A stretch of 58,253 bases of DNA from an uncultured Alcanivorax sp. (GTDB taxonomy: Bacteria > Pseudomonadota > Gammaproteobacteria > Pseudomonadales > Alcanivoracaceae): positions 1-58,253 of the forward strand of contig CAJXLA010000005.1 in assembly GCA_913055795.1 (NCBI GenBank), in the 5' to 3' direction. A program made the translations under genes and the position numbers. This document shows positions 7,122 to 46,055 of this stretch, piece by piece. Under the pieces are notes generated by a model, which did no database searches, had not been told where the DNA came from, and saw only the letters and a program-made list of their open reading frames with translations. The stretch's first letter is position 1. Each line of letters begins with the position of its first letter.

Positions 7122-7292
7122 ATGGCCGCCAATCCCATTCGTGAAAAGATCCGCCTGGTGTCCACCGCCGACACCGGCTATTTCTATACGACCACCAAGA
7201 ACAAGCGTACCCATCCGGAAAAGATGGAAACCAAGAAGTTCGACCCGGTGGCCCGCAAGCACGTCACCTTCAAGGAAGCCAAGATCAAATAG
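7122..7292 (+). CDS. rpmG: 50S ribosomal protein L33 (bL33)
   Basis: A 56-aa protein, [19 protein letters not shown] followed by [20 protein letters not shown], ending FKEAKIK: standard bL33. An AGGAG ribosome site lies directly upstream, in the 9-bp gap after rpmB. It lacks the paired CxxC zinc motifs of the zinc-containing form of L33. An intrinsic terminator follows at 7319. Confidence 0.98.
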
Positions 7293-7318: not shown

Positions 7319-7346
7319 AAAACCCGGCCTTCGTGCCGGGTTTTTT
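7319..7346 (+). terminator. Intrinsic terminator of rpmB-rpmG
   Basis: The stem ACCCGGC/GCCGGGT with loop CTTCGT is followed by a run of six T. It lies 27 bp after the rpmG stop. The upstream A-run would also let it work weakly on the other strand. Confidence 0.9.
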
Positions 7347-7350
7347 GTGT

Positions 7351-7465
7351 TGAGGCGCGAGGCGCGAGGCGCGAGGCGCGAGGCGCGGCTCAGGGTGAGG
7401 CAGAGCGACTCCGGGTCAACTCTTTTTGTGTGCTCGCCCCTCGTTCCTCGCACCTCGCCCCTTTT
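7351..7465. repeat. Purine/pyrimidine-armed inverted repeat A (rpmG/radC junction)
   Basis: The left arm is about five tandem copies of the heptamer GAGGCGC (7352-7386). The right arm near 7433-7463 reads CTCGCCCCTCGTTCCTCGCACC and then CTCGCCCC. Its reverse complement is again a run of GCGAGG-type heptamers, so the two arms form a long imperfect hairpin around about 45 bases. It lies between the rpmG terminator and the radC stop codon, which it abuts. The layout matches elements at 20625, 41103 and 45041, although the repeat unit differs and no compact GC-rich core hairpin is obvious here. Confidence 0.7.
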
Positions 7466-8138
7466 AAACCCATCCCCGCTCCGCCAGCGAATCCCAGCCG
7501 CCGTCGCCGATCACCAGGTGATCCAGCACGCGCACGTCCACCAGCGCCAGCGCATCCACCAGGCGGCGGGTAATGGAGCGGTCCGATTCGCTGGGCTCCG
7601 CAACGCCCGAGGGGTGATTGTGCGCCAGGATAATGGCGGCGGCATTGTGCTCCAGGCAGCGCCGGACCACCTCGCGCGGGTGCACGGCGGCGCCGTCAAT
7701 GGTGCCGCGGAACAGCTCCTCGAAACCCAGGACCCGGTGCTTGTTGTCCAGAAAAAGACAACCGAAGACCTCGTGCGGATAGGCACGCAACCGCGCCATC
7801 AGAAAACGGCCCGCGTCCTCCGGACGGGTGAGGGTGGCCTCGCGCTCCATTTCCTCGGCCAGCCAGCGCCGGCCCAGTTCCAGGGCTGCCTGGAGCAGGG
7901 CAATGCGCGCGGTGCCCATCCCCGGCAGCTTTTGCAGTCGGGTAACGGGGGCGTCCAGCAGCGCGCGCAAGCTGCCGAACTCCGCCAGCATCCGGCGCGC
8001 GAGATCCACCGCCGTGGTGCCGGGCACGCCGGTGCGCAGAAAAATCGCCAGGAGTTCGGCGTCGCTGAGGCTCTGTGCGCCCCGTTCAAGGAGTTTCTCG
8101 CGCGGCCGCTCAGCGCTGGGCCAGTCCGATATGGCCAT
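7464..8138 (-). CDS. radC: RadC family JAB-domain protein
   Basis: A 224-aa protein with an N-terminal helix-hairpin-helix part ([18 protein letters not shown], about 65-85). A C-terminal JAB/MPN metallo-domain carries the HNHPSG.AEPSESD motif, with an upstream conserved Glu in [10 protein letters not shown]. RadC was once linked to DNA repair, but its biochemical role is unsettled. It is divergent from coaBC, 93 bp away. Its TAA abuts repeat A, so the repeat probably forms the end of its transcript. Confidence 0.95.
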
Positions 8139-20213: not shown

Positions 20214-20600
20214 ATGCCCAATCGCTCCGTTATCCAGACTGATCAGGCGCCCGAGGCCATTGGTCCCTACTCCCAGGCCATCAAGGTGGGCGATACCGTC
20301 TATCTCAGCGGCCAGATCCCGCTGGTCCCGTCCACCATGACCCTGGTGGACGGCGACATGGACGCGCAGATCCGTCAGGTGTTCGACAACCTGGCGTCGG
20401 TGTGCGAGGCCGCCGGCGGTGCGCTGCGCAATATCGTCAAACTCAACATCTACCTCACCGACCTGAGCCATTTCGGCCTGGTCAATGACTTGATGAGTGC
20501 CTACCTGGATCAGCCCTATCCCGCACGGGCAGCCATTGGCGTAGCGGAATTGCCCAAGGGGGCCGGTGTGGAGATGGATGCGGTTATGGTGATTGACTGA
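20214..20600 (+). CDS. ridA: RidA family enamine/imine deaminase
   Basis: RidA removes reactive enamine or imine intermediates made by PLP enzymes. The 128-aa protein has [21 protein letters not shown], a central [12 protein letters not shown] strand and the active-site segment [20 protein letters not shown] with the conserved Arg and Glu. I chose the ATG at 20214, eight bases after GAGG. A GTG at 20208 would add two residues. It follows spoT by 37 bp, the usual order. Confidence 0.96.
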
Positions 20601-20624
20601 GTGATCAGTCGATGACCAGTCAAA

Positions 20625-20719
20625 AGCCGAAAGACGCAAGCCCAAAGAAAAAATGAGCGGGCCGCGCTCCGCGCGGCCCGGCTTTATCTCTTTCATCTTT
20701 CATCTTTCATCTTTCGGCT
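20625..20719. repeat. Purine/pyrimidine-armed inverted repeat B with GC hairpin (ridA / epimerase junction)
   Basis: The left arm is purine-rich (AGCCGAAAGACGCAAGCCC, then AAAGAAAAAATGAG). The core is a perfect 9-bp stem, GGGCCGCGC/GCGCGGCCC (20659-20679), with loop TCC. The right arm is pyrimidine-rich with three tandem copies of TCTTTCA and ends TCTTTCGGCT, the complement of the left end. Read on either strand it is a GC hairpin followed by a pyrimidine tract, so it should act as a two-way terminator. The right arm overlaps the last codons and stop of the convergent gene. Confidence 0.8.
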
Positions 20720-21541
20720 GGTACGAAGCACCTCTTCGTACCCTGTCCGATAATCCGGATACCGAAGCTCGAAATCCGATTCCTCGATATAGCGGCTGCG
20801 CACGCGCTTGCCCGCCGGTGAACCCTCCAGGGGCAAATCAAGGGGCCGGCCCAGCTGCTCGCCCAGCCAGTTCAGCACCTCGTAATTGAGCACCGGATGA
20901 CGGTCGGTACCCACTACCAGCGAGGGCTGCATCTCGCCCGCCAGCCAGTGCTCACCCAGCCACCTCAGCAGGCGCACGCAATCGGTGCGGTGAATGCGGT
21001 TGCTCCAGCGCAGCGTGGGCGGTTCTTCGCCCTCGTGGATGGCTTCCGCCTGCCGCACCAGGCGCTGACTGTCCGGCCCGTAAATGCCGCTGAAACGCAC
21101 CACTGTGGCCAGCGAGCGGATGGAGATTTCCTCTTCCGCGGCCAGAAGAATCCGGCCATTGTAGCGAGGCGGGCTCGGCGGCGTATCCTCGTCCACTTGC
21201 GCTTCATCATCGCCGTAAACAGCGGTACTGGAGACAAAGATCACGGGTGGCAATGGCTGCTGGCGGGCCAGTTGATCCAGCAGACGCTGCGGCGCGCCCA
21301 GAAAGGCGCGACTGTAGCCCTGCTCGGAACGCTCGCCGGGTGTGAGAATGATATAGACCAGATCCACCCGGTCGGGCGGTAGCAACACCGCGCCGTCGTT
21401 CAGGTCGCAGGAATAGAGATCAATCCCTTCCGGCGCTTCATTGCCGCGGCGAATGGCGCTGACGCGCTGACCCGCATCGCGCCACTCAACCGCCAGGGGC
21501 CGGCCCAGATCGCCCAGGCCGGCTATCAGAATGTGAGCCAC
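20693..21541 (-). CDS. NAD(P)-binding epimerase/SDR-like protein (YeeZ-like)
   Basis: A 282-aa Rossmann protein starting MAHILIAGLGDLGRPLAVEW. It has the extended-SDR features VIFVSSTAVYGDD and VVRFSGIYGP, and an IHRTDCVRLLRWL segment near the C-terminal domain. The catalytic YxxxK of true epimerases is not obvious after the YGDD segment, so its reaction is uncertain. It resembles the YeeZ/GDP-sugar-epimerase-like group of unknown substrate. Its last residues (RKMKDER) are encoded by the pyrimidine arm of repeat B. It is divergent from oxyR, 103 bp away. Confidence 0.8.
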   Translation of the reverse strand: MAHILIAGLGDLGRPLAVEWRDAGQRVSAIRRGNEAPEGIDLYSCDLNDGAVLLPPDRVDLVYIILTPGERSEQGYSRAFLGAPQRLLDQLARQQPLPPVIFVSSTAVYGDDEAQVDEDTPPSPPRYNGRILLAAEEEISIRSLATVVRFSGIYGPDSQRLVRQAEAIHEGEEPPTLRWSNRIHRTDCVRLLRWLGEHWLAGEMQPSLVVGTDRHPVLNYEVLNWLGEQLGRPLDLPLEGSPAGKRVRSRYIEESDFELRYPDYRTGYEEVLRTSRKMKDER

Positions 21542-40294: not shown

Positions 40295-41113
40295 ATGTCC
40301 AGAGCCTATGCGGGGCATCGAATTGTGATCACGGGCGCGGGCGCCGGCATCGGCGCCCTCATGGCGGAGAAATTCGCCGCACGGGGTGCGGAAGTCATTG
40401 TCACCGCCCGGCGCGAACAAGCGGCGCGCGACGTAAGCGAGCACATCCGCAACAGCGGGGGAGAAGCCTTTCCGTATGTGCTGGATGTCACCGACATCGA
40501 CAGTATCCCCGCCTTCCGCGACAAGCTCCATGCCGAACGCGGACGCATCACCATGTTGATCAACAATGCCGGCGTAGTTTTCGGCGGCGAATTCGAACAG
40601 CTCCCCCTGGCCGATCATCTCAACACCTTCCAGGTGAACACCAATGGCCTGGTGGCCATGACCCATGCCTTCCTGCCGGATCTGATCCAGGCGTCCTCCG
40701 CCTGGCTGGTCAATATCGCCAGTGCCTCGGCCTTTCTGGGGCTGCCCTACGGCAGTTCCTACGCCGCCAGCAAGTGGGCGGTAGTGGGCTTTTCCGAATC
40801 CATCCGCCTGGAAATGCAGATGCGCGAGTTCGACCATGTGGGCGTAACCACCGTCTGTCCCAGCTATATTGCCACCGGCATGTTCGAAGGGGTCAAGACA
40901 CCCCTGTTGTCGCCCATGCTCACCCCGGACAAGGTGGTGCGCTCCATCCTCAAGGGCCTCAAGCGCGGTGATGCCTTCGTCATCGAGCCGCCCATGGCCC
41001 GCTCGGTGGAACTGCTCAAGGGTACGCTGCCACGCGGGATCTGGGATCAGGTCGCCCGGATCACCGGTGTGTCCACGAGTATGTATAGCTGGCGGGGCAA
41101 GAGTCGCAAGTAG
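40295..41113 (+). CDS. Short-chain dehydrogenase/reductase
   Basis: A 272-aa classical SDR with the cofactor loop ITGAGAGIGALMAEKFA, the NNAGV motif (LINNAGVVFGG), an active-site Ser in NIASASAFLG and the YAASK catalytic pair (SYAASKWAVVGF). The arginines after the glycine loop (TARREQ) favour NADP. It lies between the antiporter and an acyl-CoA dehydrogenase, so a fatty aldehyde, acyl or alcohol substrate is plausible but not shown. The last codons and stop (KSRK) fall in the left arm of repeat C. Confidence 0.9.
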   Translation: MSRAYAGHRIVITGAGAGIGALMAEKFAARGAEVIVTARREQAARDVSEHIRNSGGEAFPYVLDVTDIDSIPAFRDKLHAERGRITMLINNAGVVFGGEFEQLPLADHLNTFQVNTNGLVAMTHAFLPDLIQASSAWLVNIASASAFLGLPYGSSYAASKWAVVGFSESIRLEMQMREFDHVGVTTVCPSYIATGMFEGVKTPLLSPMLTPDKVVRSILKGLKRGDAFVIEPPMARSVELLKGTLPRGIWDQVARITGVSTSMYSWRGKSRK

Positions 41114-41205
41114 CAAGTCGAAAGTAGAAAGAAATGAAGAAAGGCCGCGCTTCGCGCGGCCGCTCAATTTTTCTCGCGACTTTGGTCTTTCGACTTTCGA
41201 CTGCG
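41103..41205. repeat. Purine/pyrimidine-armed inverted repeat C with GC hairpin
   Basis: The left arm (GTCGCAAGTAGCAAGTCGAA, then AGTAGAAAGAAATGAAG) is purine-rich and starts inside the SDR gene's last codons. The core is an 8-bp stem, GGCCGCGC/GCGCGGCC (41143-41161), with loop TTC. The right arm (TTTTTCTCGCGACTTTGG, then TCTTTCGACTTTCGACTG) is the imperfect complement of the left. It should act as a terminator between the SDR and the acyl-CoA dehydrogenase gene, both on the plus strand. About 110 bp downstream of it look ordinary. Confidence 0.8.
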
Positions 41206-41316: not shown

Positions 41317-43131
41317 ATGCCGACCTACCGTACACCGCAACGGGACATGAAGTTTCTGCTGGACGAAGTCTTCGACTTCCCCGCCCATTACCAGCAGCTG
41401 CCCGGCGGGGAGGAGGCTACACCCGACATGGTCAACGCCATCATCGGGGAGATGGGCAAGCTCTGCGAGAACACCCTGGCGCCGCTGTACCAGTCCGGCG
41501 ATGAAGAGGGCTGCAAGCTGGAAAACGGCGAGGTCACCACACCCACGGGGTTCAAGGAAGCGTACCAGGAATACATCAACGGTGGCTGGCAGGGGCTGTC
41601 CCATCCACCCGAATACGGCGGCCAGGGGCTGCCCATGTCGCTGGGGCTGATCAAGCAGGAAATGATGGGCACGGCCAACTGGCCCTTCGCCATGTATCCC
41701 GGCCTCAGCCTGGGCGCGCAGAACACCATCATGATGCATGGCACGGACGAGCAAAAGAACACCTATCTGCCGCCGCTTACCGAAGGCACCTGGGGGGGCA
41801 CCATGTGCCTGACCGAACCCCAGTGCGGCACGGACCTGGGCCAGGTCAAAACCAAGGCGGTGCCGCAGGATGACGGCAGCTACAAGATCGCGGGCACCAA
41901 GATCTTCATTTCCTCCGGCGAGCATGATCTCACCGAAAACATCGTCCATGTGGTGCTCGCGCGCACACCGGGCGCGCCCGAAGGCACCAAGGGCATTTCC
42001 CTGTTCATCGTGCCCAAGTATCTGCCGGGCCATATCGGTGAAAGCAACGGCGTGTCCTGTGGCGCGCTGGAAAAGAAGATGGGCATCAAGGCCTCGGCCA
42101 CCTGTGTCATGAATTTCGACGAGGCGACAGGCTTCATGCTGGGTCCGGAGAATCAGGGCATGGAGTGCATGTTCACCTTCATGAACAGCGCACGCATCGG
42201 CACCGCCATGCAGGGACTCTGTCATGCCGAGCTTTCCTATCAGGGCGCGCTGCCCTATGCGAAGGAGCGCCGGTCCATGCGCGCGCTTTCGGGCAAGAAG
42301 GATCCGGACGCGGTAGCCGATCCGCTGATCGAACACGGCGACGTGCGGCGGATGCTGCTGACCCAGAAAGCCTTCGTGGAAGGCGCGCGGTCCATGCTCT
42401 ATTTCGCCGGCCAGTATGCGGATCACATGGTCGTGGGTATCACCGAGGAAGACAACGACCAATACGAGTACTGGGATGACAAACTCGGCTTCCTCACGCC
42501 CATCCTCAAGGGCTTTCTCACCGAGATGGGTCTGGAGTGCGCCAACCTGGGGATGCAGATCTGGGGCGGTCACGGCTATATCAGTGAAAACGGCATGGAG
42601 CAGATTGCGCGGGACGCGCGCATCGCCACCCTCTATGAGGGCACCACGGGCATTCAGGCGCTGGATCTGCTCGGGCGCAAGGTGCTGTTGCTCACCCAGG
42701 GGCGTTGCGTACGCGATTTCACGGCCCTGCTGACGCGCTTCGGCCGGCGGAATCTGACCCATTCCGAACTGCGGCCCTATGCCTGGAAACTGCTCAAGAT
42801 CGCGGCTCAGTGGAATTACATCACCACACGCATCGGCATGACGGCCCGCAAGGACCGGGACATGGTGGGCACGGCCAGCCATGATTTTCTGATGTATTCC
42901 GGCTACGCCATGATGGCCTATTTCTGGGCCCTGCAGGCGGAAACCGCGCAGCACAAGCTCAACGACGGTGGCGATCAGCCCGAGGACTTCTATCGCGCCA
43001 AGCTGGAGACGGCCGAGTTCTACTTCGACCATCTGCTGCCGCGCGCGTCGGCACACGCCGACGCGGCGCTCAAGCCCACCAAGGGCATCATGCAGATGGC
43101 GGCGGAGCGGTTCTCCTTCGATTACGAATAA
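41317..43131 (+). CDS. Acyl-CoA dehydrogenase (long form with extra C-terminal domain)
   Basis: A 604-aa flavoprotein that should introduce the alpha-beta double bond in acyl-CoA. The N-terminal lid region is followed by FAD/substrate segments (MCLTEPQCGTDLG, GTKIFISSGEHDLTEN) and the catalytic Glu region ATLYEGTTGIQALDLLGRK. The extra C-terminal part (about 470-604) ends KGIMQMAAERFSFDYE. Such long forms include DmdC-like and some fatty acyl-CoA dehydrogenases; chain length cannot be told. GAGGTGA precedes the ATG. The wax ester synthase gene follows 61 bp downstream. Confidence 0.93.
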   Translation: MPTYRTPQRDMKFLLDEVFDFPAHYQQLPGGEEATPDMVNAIIGEMGKLCENTLAPLYQSGDEEGCKLENGEVTTPTGFKEAYQEYINGGWQGLSHPPEYGGQGLPMSLGLIKQEMMGTANWPFAMYPGLSLGAQNTIMMHGTDEQKNTYLPPLTEGTWGGTMCLTEPQCGTDLGQVKTKAVPQDDGSYKIAGTKIFISSGEHDLTENIVHVVLARTPGAPEGTKGISLFIVPKYLPGHIGESNGVSCGALEKKMGIKASATCVMNFDEATGFMLGPENQGMECMFTFMNSARIGTAMQGLCHAELSYQGALPYAKERRSMRALSGKKDPDAVADPLIEHGDVRRMLLTQKAFVEGARSMLYFAGQYADHMVVGITEEDNDQYEYWDDKLGFLTPILKGFLTEMGLECANLGMQIWGGHGYISENGMEQIARDARIATLYEGTTGIQALDLLGRKVLLLTQGRCVRDFTALLTRFGRRNLTHSELRPYAWKLLKIAAQWNYITTRIGMTARKDRDMVGTASHDFLMYSGYAMMAYFWALQAETAQHKLNDGGDQPEDFYRAKLETAEFYFDHLLPRASAHADAALKPTKGIMQMAAERFSFDYE

Positions 43132-44780: not shown

Positions 44781-44984
44781 ATGTCATCAGGTACAGTCAA
44801 GTGGTTCAACGAGTCCAAGGGCTTTGGTTTCATCGCTCGGGACGAAGGCGGCTCCGATGTGTTCGTACATTTCAGTGCCATCCAGGGCTCCGGCTTTCGC
44901 ACTCTGGAAGAAGGTCAGAAAGTGACCTTTGATACCCAGGAAAGCCCCAAGGGTCTGCAGGCCGCCAACGTGGTAGCCGAATAA
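44781..44984 (+). CDS. Cold-shock protein (CspA family)
   Basis: A 67-aa single-domain OB-fold RNA chaperone. It has [19 protein letters not shown] (RNP1), DVFVHFSAI (RNP2) and [17 protein letters not shown]. The ATG at 44781 has GAGGAAAG upstream; an in-frame ATG at 44751 would add ten non-family residues. It is the only gene in its unit and ends at a strong terminator. Confidence 0.96.
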
Positions 44985-45005: not shown

Positions 45006-45035
45006 AAAAAACCCCGCTTCGGCGGGGTTTTTCTT
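45006..45035 (+). terminator. Intrinsic terminator of the cold-shock gene
   Basis: Stem AAAACCCCGC/GCGGGGTTTT with a short TTCG-type loop, followed by TTCTTTTT. It lies 22 bp after the stop codon. Confidence 0.92.
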
Positions 45036-45040
45036 TTTAA

Positions 45041-45122
45041 GGAAAGCGGAAAGACGAAAGAGAAAAGATGAAAGAGGGCACCGCAGGCGCCCTGCTTTAT
45101 TTTTTTGCTACTTTCTTCTCTC
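45041..45122. repeat. Purine/pyrimidine-armed inverted repeat D with GC hairpin
   Basis: The left arm is purine-rich (GGAAAGCGGAAAGACGAAAG, then AGAAAAGATGAAAGA). The core is the stem GGGC.CC/GG.GCCC around GCA. The right arm (GCTTTATTTTTTTGCTAC, then TTTCTTCTCTCGACC) covers the stop codon of the convergent metallophosphatase gene. On the minus strand it reads as a GC hairpin followed by a long CTTTC-rich tract, suited to end that gene's transcript. Confidence 0.78.
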
Positions 45123-46055
45123 GACCGCCACAAACTTCCCCGCATCCAGCTGCTGCTCCCCGTCCCACCGATACGCGACGAGTTTGCCGCCCGGCCGCGC
45201 GACGCTGTAATCCAGGCAGGCTACATTGTCCGCCAGGGGTGCGGGTTTGCCGTCCAACCAGTAGTGGCCCAGGAACACCGGGGGTTCCTCCGCGCCGTAG
45301 TCGAGCTCATAATCCGTCGACACCGGTCGGTCGGGAATATGGGCCTCCGCCGATGTGGGTCCCATGAACAATGAACGATAGGTGTGCGGCCCCGGCTCCC
45401 ACCAGCGTATGCGGATGCGCTGACGGGCCACGCCGTCCTTGTCCCGGAAACTGTGATCTTCCGGCAGTTTGATCTCCTTGCCCTTGAGCAGGATCTCGAC
45501 GGCCCGAAAGACCTCGGTATCCTGACGGCAGGCATCCACCAACAGATCCTGCGTCAACCGGTTGCCCGGGGCCAGGCGGGGTTCGAGCACGGCCAGCGCA
45601 TCCGGATCCCAGCACGCGTGCACCACACGCAAATCCCCCAGATCCAGAAACAGCGGCAGCTCCATGAACCAGTTCAGCACGGCGGGCAGTTCGGCTTCTG
45701 CCTCCCGGTCGCCGAGATAGGCATTGAGAAAGGCGAGGTGGTTGCGAATATTGCGGTTGCTGCGTTGCCGCAGCGTGCCCGGCTGCTCCGGATCCCGGGT
45801 ATGAAAGGCGAGGGCGTTGAACTCGTGGTTGCCCATGACGGCCAGGGCGGCGCCGTTGTCCACCATGGTTCGGGCGAGATTCACCACGGCCCGCTGCTCC
45901 GGGCCCCGGTCCACAAAGTCACCCACGAAGATCGCCTGTCGGGACGGATGCCGCCAACCGTTACCGTCACGCTCATACCCCAGTTTTTCCAGCAGGGTTT
46001 CCAGCGGCACCAGATGGCCGTGAATATCGCCAATCAGATCGTAGCCGGCAGGCAT
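45108..46055 (-). CDS. Calcineurin-like metallophosphoesterase
   Basis: A 315-aa phosphatase with the family motifs in order: GDIHGH (residues about 8-13), GDFVDRGPEQ, MGNHEFN, VHACWD and FLGHYW. It resembles the diadenosine-tetraphosphatase/Ser-Thr phosphatase-like group (PrpE/ApaH-like); the substrate is not predictable. The ATG at 46055 (MPAGYDLIGDIHGH) follows a GAGAG ribosome site; the upstream in-frame extension looks non-coding. Its 3' end lies in repeat D. Confidence 0.88.
   Translation of the reverse strand: MPAGYDLIGDIHGHLVPLETLLEKLGYERDGNGWRHPSRQAIFVGDFVDRGPEQRAVVNLARTMVDNGAALAVMGNHEFNALAFHTRDPEQPGTLRQRSNRNIRNHLAFLNAYLGDREAEAELPAVLNWFMELPLFLDLGDLRVVHACWDPDALAVLEPRLAPGNRLTQDLLVDACRQDTEVFRAVEILLKGKEIKLPEDHSFRDKDGVARQRIRIRWWEPGPHTYRSLFMGPTSAEAHIPDRPVSTDYELDYGAEEPPVFLGHYWLDGKPAPLADNVACLDYSVARPGGKLVAYRWDGEQQLDAGKFVAVERRK

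Follow-up and report, generated by a model that had tools for sequence, protein, structure and literature searches.

The window analysed here is a 58,253-nt stretch of DNA from an uncultured Alcanivorax sp. (contig 5 of a 2.78 Mb assembly, 87% complete), and four of its gene ends, near positions 7351, 20625, 41103 and 45041, carry facing arms of repeated 7-nt units, or heptads. Three of these sites lie between convergent genes and one between tandem genes, a stop codon falls inside an arm at three of them and abuts an arm at the fourth, and a GC hairpin separates the arms at every site except 7351. A sequence-only reading of the window had described this layout, and rereading of the sequence together with Tandem Repeats Finder (TRF) confirmed it, with period-7 arrays reported for both arms at 7351 and 41103, for the pyrimidine-rich arm at 20625 and for the purine-rich arm at 45041. 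The arms prove to be versions of a single degenerate heptad anchored to stop codons, and three of the four sites are members of one dispersed family. SpoT from the window shares 75-82% identity with Alcanivorax and Alloalcanivorax, compared with about 60% for other families, and this places the source in the Alcanivoracaceae. All gene ends cited depend on a simple hexamer-based caller (1070 genes, 87% coding).

The element at 20625 occupies the junction between the gene for RidA, whose stop lies at 20598-20600, and a minus-strand gene at 20693-21541. Its left arm (AGCCGAAAGACGCAAGCCCAAAG; 20625-20653, plus strand), recognised as an inverted repeat, begins 25 nt past the RidA stop; a hairpin of 10 G-C pairs follows at 20658-20680; and the right arm (20690-20719, minus strand), seen in the sequence and by TRF as three to four copies of GAAAGAT, contains the TGA stop (20693-20695) of the minus-strand gene and encodes the last residues of its protein. 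At 41103, the left arm (GTCGCAAGTAGCAAGTCGAAAGTAGAAAG; 41103-41131, plus strand, TRF) contains the TAG stop (41111-41113) of an SDR gene, and a hairpin of 8 G-C pairs (41143-41161) separates it from a right arm at 41177-41202 (minus strand, TRF). The next gene here, at 41317, is on the same strand, and no minus-strand gene ends at the right arm.

The third element stands just beyond an ordinary terminator (45007-45032, plus strand, by folding) that belongs to the plus-strand gene at 44781-44984 and lies outside the element. Its left arm (GAAAGCGGAAAGACGAAAGAGAAAAGATGAAAG; 45042-45074, plus strand, TRF) adjoins a hairpin at 45075-45093, and its degenerate right arm (45103-45124, minus strand, read from the sequence) contains the TAG stop (45108-45110) of the minus-strand gene at 45108-46055. 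Folding gives a GC hairpin with T-rich tracts, terminator-like on both strands, at 20658-20680 and 41143-41161. At 45075-45095 each strand uses a different stem, the 45075-45093 hairpin being terminator-like on the minus strand and a shorter one at 45083-45095 having a T-rich tail on the plus strand, and 7351 has no such structure. The arms at 7351 are a plus-strand array of GAGGCGC (7352-7387; 5.1 copies at 100% by TRF), downstream of the ordinary terminator (about 7322-7347) of a plus-strand gene ending at 7292, and a minus-strand array at 7433-7462 (TRF), directly after the TAA stop (7464-7466) of a gene identified by NCBIfam as RadC. Ordinary plus-gene terminators thus precede two of the sites, as had been noted from the sequence.

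A stop-anchored heptad

About 1.15 Mb of the genome was scanned for tandem similarity at a lag of 7, a comparison with shuffled sequence that the sequence-only reading had suggested. The scan returned 67 intergenic arrays, none in coding DNA and none in three dinucleotide shuffles, and other lags gave almost no arrays save for the harmonic at 14 and an unrelated 9-mer; chance is therefore excluded as their source. Likewise, the pattern GAAAGNNGAAAGN{30,60}CTTNCNNCTT had 52 matches in the genome and its reversed control had none. When all arrays are aligned in phase they reduce to a single heptad, GMDAGNN, in which A4 (97%), G5 (98%) and G1 (87%) are nearly fixed and positions 6 and 7 are free. 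The four units that had been taken as different (GAGGCGC, TCTTTCA, TCGAAAG and GAAAGAC) are rotations or opposite strands of this one heptad. Two classes can be recognised, class I (GAAAGNN or GCAAGNN) and class II (GCGAGGN or GCTAGGN, including both arms at 7351), and neighbouring units are more similar to each other than random units are (0.64 versus 0.37).

The arrays begin at the stop codon of a gene on the same strand. Within the intergenic regions that hold them, 47 of 66 lie no more than 20 nt from an own-strand stop, against an expectation of 15.8 and a maximum of 27 in 2000 random placements in the same regions, and 23 of 83 contain the same-strand stop. The stop codon TAG is enriched at arrays (24/61, compared with 186/1058 genes; Fisher p 3e-5) and 18 of 20 TAGs share the register of the heptad. 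Arrays are found in 23 of 101 convergent intergenic regions, 26 of 429 tandem and 3 of 143 divergent. Where two arms face each other they always point inward (19 pairs, and 0 outward) and share a unit class (12 I-I, 7 II-II, 0 mixed), and for 45 of the 83 arrays no partner arm was detected.

This distribution could instead be the product of neutral polymerase slippage, to which heptanucleotides would be more prone than repeats of other lengths. Arrays would grow wherever slippage happens and persist only directly behind stop codons, where they disturb no reading frame and no promoter; they would then be a footprint of tolerance and no device. In most genomes no long simple repeat is commoner than the heptanucleotide, and slippage has been proposed for it (Mrazek, as reported in PMC4679880). 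The absence of arrays from coding DNA, their rarity between divergent genes, the likeness of adjacent units and the perfection of some arrays (such as 7352-7387) all suit such a process. However, slippage does not account for the strictly sense orientation of arrays at the stop, the class-matched inward pairs, the fixed core with free NN common to most loci, and the dispersed type I family described below, and we consider it rather unlikely.

Two further observations concern the units themselves. Across all unit families seen, most heptads, read on the sense strand, appear to include a triplet resembling a stop (NAG, NGA or TAA), which might hint at an origin by copying of a stop codon; an all-frame stop array was rejected as a general description, with TAG or TGA present in some units and neither in the common GCGAGGC and GAAAGAC. 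A second dispersed repeat, of period 9 (AACCACAGAGNNCACAGAGNNCACAGAG), has a fixed core CACAGAG followed by two free bases. It forms about 28 intergenic arrays in the 1.15 Mb, often as facing pairs and with no apparent stop-codon rule (e.g., on other contigs of this genome, C3:28919-28995, C24:24711-24889 and C10:4098-4408).

The type I family and its turnover

A profile built without the window members detects the elements at 41099-41203 (E 3e-22), 20616-20722 (2e-17) and 45042-45124 (5e-14). The same profile finds no match at 7351, which is a second, hairpin-less class. The family model has 118 matches in the genome, counted as about 66 loci, and describes an element of about 100 bp. Its copies align with one another over about 100 bp, with similarity stopping at the element ends, and one pair, from two separate junctions that lie 2.6 kb from each other, is 91% identical over 101 bp. 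The sequence-only reading had favoured selection over the copying of one element; because the window-free profile recovers three of the sites as one dispersed family, we infer that copying was involved. Class II arms may, for their part, flank a palindromic element of 110-130 bp (ACCCCCTC...GAGGGGT ends) in place of a short hairpin, and this recurs at about 80% identity elsewhere in the genome (C11:5241-5435, C16:20724-20892 and C11:1805-1966).

We lean towards the interpretation that the sites are stop-anchored heptad elements, that the type I form is a dispersed palindromic family similar to repetitive extragenic palindromic (REP) sequences, and that its hairpin terminates transcription and its arms shield the RNA 3' end. 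In this scheme, an ordinary GC hairpin would usually stand between two facing heptad arms, and the type I form (20625, 41103, 45041) would have been inserted or copied beside stop codons, often supplying the stop. For transcription arriving from either direction the central hairpin would be the terminator, and the imperfectly paired arms would lengthen its stem and protect the RNA 3' end. The type I elements are thus a defined repeat class with the capacity to change stop codons and C-termini, and they probably set RNA 3' ends.

Several results weigh against parts of this scheme. Copies agree only weakly in the order of their interior units (p 0.036), and some of what they have in common may therefore reflect a shared format and not descent. 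No target-site duplication was seen on inspection by eye, and neither this genome (87% complete) nor a congener gave a match to a Y1/RAYT (REP-associated tyrosine) transposase (Y1_Tnp, PF01797); the domain was found in two other genomes searched (G031 and G003). A RAYT-mobilised REP was rejected on the absence of a Y1 transposase from the genome. As for miniature inverted-repeat transposable elements, the outer 9-10 bp are complementary, as said no duplication is visible, and the search for a parent transposase was limited to Y1.

Related genomes show turnover of the elements. The congener assembly consists of short contigs, leaving few junctions to compare. At the RidA junction, five relatives that share the gene order have no element, and in them the match to the minus-strand protein breaks off at residue 272-277 of 282; in the window the final residues are array-encoded. 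That protein has no NCBIfam match, a first contig scan with it returned 0 matches, and its neighbours are oxyR/recG-like genes. At the SDR junction, Alcanivorax orthologues mostly end K-G-K-K-stop, and in several of them the stop is immediately followed by other heptads (GAGCTNN or TAGCTNC). At the RadC junction, CAG-NGGT heptads are present in the congener, and no element was found in relatives at the fourth. Persistence of the layout under a change of unit was thus confirmed at an orthologous junction of a window site. At a further junction (C6:48589-48698), the arms are GAAAGNN in this genome and GCGAGNN/GCAAGGG in the congener. Overall, relatives mostly have no such element at these junctions, or have heptads of other units (GAGCTNN, CAGNGGT).

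Two side observations belong here. At five loci from several Alcanivorax genomes (L214, L224, L225, L226 and L230), inverted GCGGCGGAGATCGGC repeats follow radC and adjoin the start of a putative RAYT-type transposase gene, as judged by eye. An Alcanivorax-family locus (L110 3688-3841) has facing CAG-GATN heptads with nearly identical arms, unlike the unmatched arms of the window's genome.

On a wider scale, the type I model scores much lower in relatives, one Alloalcanivorax-like group having a related form of the element. A 400-kb sample of one Alcanivorax genome contains 54 period-7 arrays between genes and 2 within coding DNA, and their units fall into at least five unrelated families; a stop is abutted by the sense form about 20 times and by the antisense form at most twice. 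Some of the Alcanivorax units are not purine-rich (GACGCCN), and relatives with GACGCCN or AGTKAAN heptads have the same layout; the purine/pyrimidine character of the arms, prominent in the sequence-only reading, is therefore not essential. Another gammaproteobacterial family yielded 7 period-7 arrays in 400 kb. Four successive GMRAGNN units occur patchily, in 41 of 370 gammaproteobacterial genomes, a count for which the reversed control is not independent in the case of GAAAG-type units.

Sense heptad arrays locked to the stop might form one general class across many bacteria that does not depend on sequence: period and orientation would be kept, and the unit would be exchanged from one lineage to the next (GGGAATC, GMDAGNN, GAGCTNN, GACGCCN, AGTKAAN, CAGNGGT). 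Something at gene ends would read or make DNA in sevens, for instance RNA polymerase, the ribosome as it terminates or a process that copies repeats. We put this forward as a doubtful but broader possibility.

Hairpins and the pairing of arms

At the four sites, folding of the whole elements is strong for either strand (z -2.5 to -5.5), and a long interrupted stem is possible. This potential speaks for the sequence-only interpretation, under which the sites would be a selected class of two-way terminators or RNA 3' ends whose complementary arm structure is itself functional. The arms also keep one unit class, and the outermost arm pair covaries (column 3/120 = UA, AU, CG, UG; covariation score 0.132 versus 0.093, 3/500 shuffles). 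Against it, a hairpin of -10 kcal/mol or better follows 78% of arrays, compared with 81% of convergent gene ends that have no array, so that in frequency the hairpin is an ordinary terminator and not a distinct type. Free positions within a unit class match no better between facing arms than between permuted ones (0.514 versus 0.522; p 0.63), more than half of the arrays have no detected partner arm, and RNAalifold pairs the central hairpin only. Except at the outermost bases, little points to selection for pairing, and the arms are complementary mainly because both consist of the same unit. We judge selection on arm structure to be improbable. What survives of the earlier interpretation is the recurrent layout, the arms at gene ends, the change of unit and the folding; the terminator type, the selection on pairing and the exclusion of copying are not supported.

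Ring proteins bind spaced NAG triplets, and by analogy the heptad cores (GMDAG here; GAGCT, GAGT and GACGC in relatives) might be tandem sites for a protein or RNA whose oligomeric form sets the 7-nt spacing; the fixed core and free NN of every unit, the same-strand orientation after the stop and the parallel 9-mer class would fit, but the unrelated cores within one Alcanivorax genome would require several readers, we know of no candidate, and this explanation is very unlikely.

Comparison with known repeat systems

The layout resembles known bacterial repeats, and the repeat unit is new. Literature searches by exact string and by topic found no paper on the GMDAGNN unit, and within the window Rfam at its gathering threshold gave no match for the heptad elements, its sole match being a cspA-type thermoregulator leader (RF01766; 44662-45035) over the small plus-strand gene upstream of the third element. 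Triplex motifs (TMECO, PMC4666352) were rejected as a counterpart, having another G/C motif and no stop-codon rule. The statement that no named family exists was nonetheless too strong, since heptamers of Xanthomonas and REPs share much with these elements.

Bidirectional intrinsic terminators have the same GC hairpin and T-rich flanks on both strands; the classical ones are without heptad arms, and plain examples also occur in this genome (e.g., 45007-45032). Heptanucleotide short tandemly repeated repetitive sequences of cyanobacteria are intergenic 7-mer direct repeats at many loci. So are the TAACTGA heptamers of Beggiatoaceae, which differ in lying mostly just upstream of start codons, and not behind stops, and in almost never forming inverted pairs (PMC4679880).

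REPs and bacterial interspersed mosaic elements (the GTAG and CGTC superfamilies) come closer to the type I form. They too are dispersed palindromes at convergent and unidirectional junctions, less than 20 bp from gene 3' ends, with closely placed opposite units and termini that supply TAG stops (PMC3733652). REPs are, however, palindromes of 20-40 bp tagged GTAG or CGTC, whereas the element here is about 100 bp long, with heptad arms and an outer end AGTNGMAAG. GTAG REPs are thought to be mobilised by specific transposases (PMC3733652), and this genome has no Y1 transposase.

The other nearest counterparts are the GGGAATC heptamers of Xanthomonas and the GGGGA(C/T)T heptamers of Nostoc (Rehm et al. 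2015, PMC4692102). Like the arrays described here, they are tandem intergenic 7-nt units in coding-strand orientation, no more than 50 bp from a stop codon or over it, scarce between divergent genes and arranged in inward pairs; Xanthomonas has 70 and 75 convergent inverted pairs per genome (PMC4692102). The unit here is different, degenerate and changing between related genera, a GC hairpin often lies between its arms, and one of its forms is a dispersed family. The Xanthomonas heptamers were interpreted as G-quadruplexes, an explanation we reject here because just 1 of 83 arrays has four GGG tracts. The same layout is built here from units that cannot form G-quadruplexes and that vary from one related genus to another. 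This speaks against G-quadruplexes as the general cause and indicates period and stop-codon orientation as the conserved features, and the old question of why a length of 7 bases is so frequent among the intergenic repeats of bacteria becomes directly testable.
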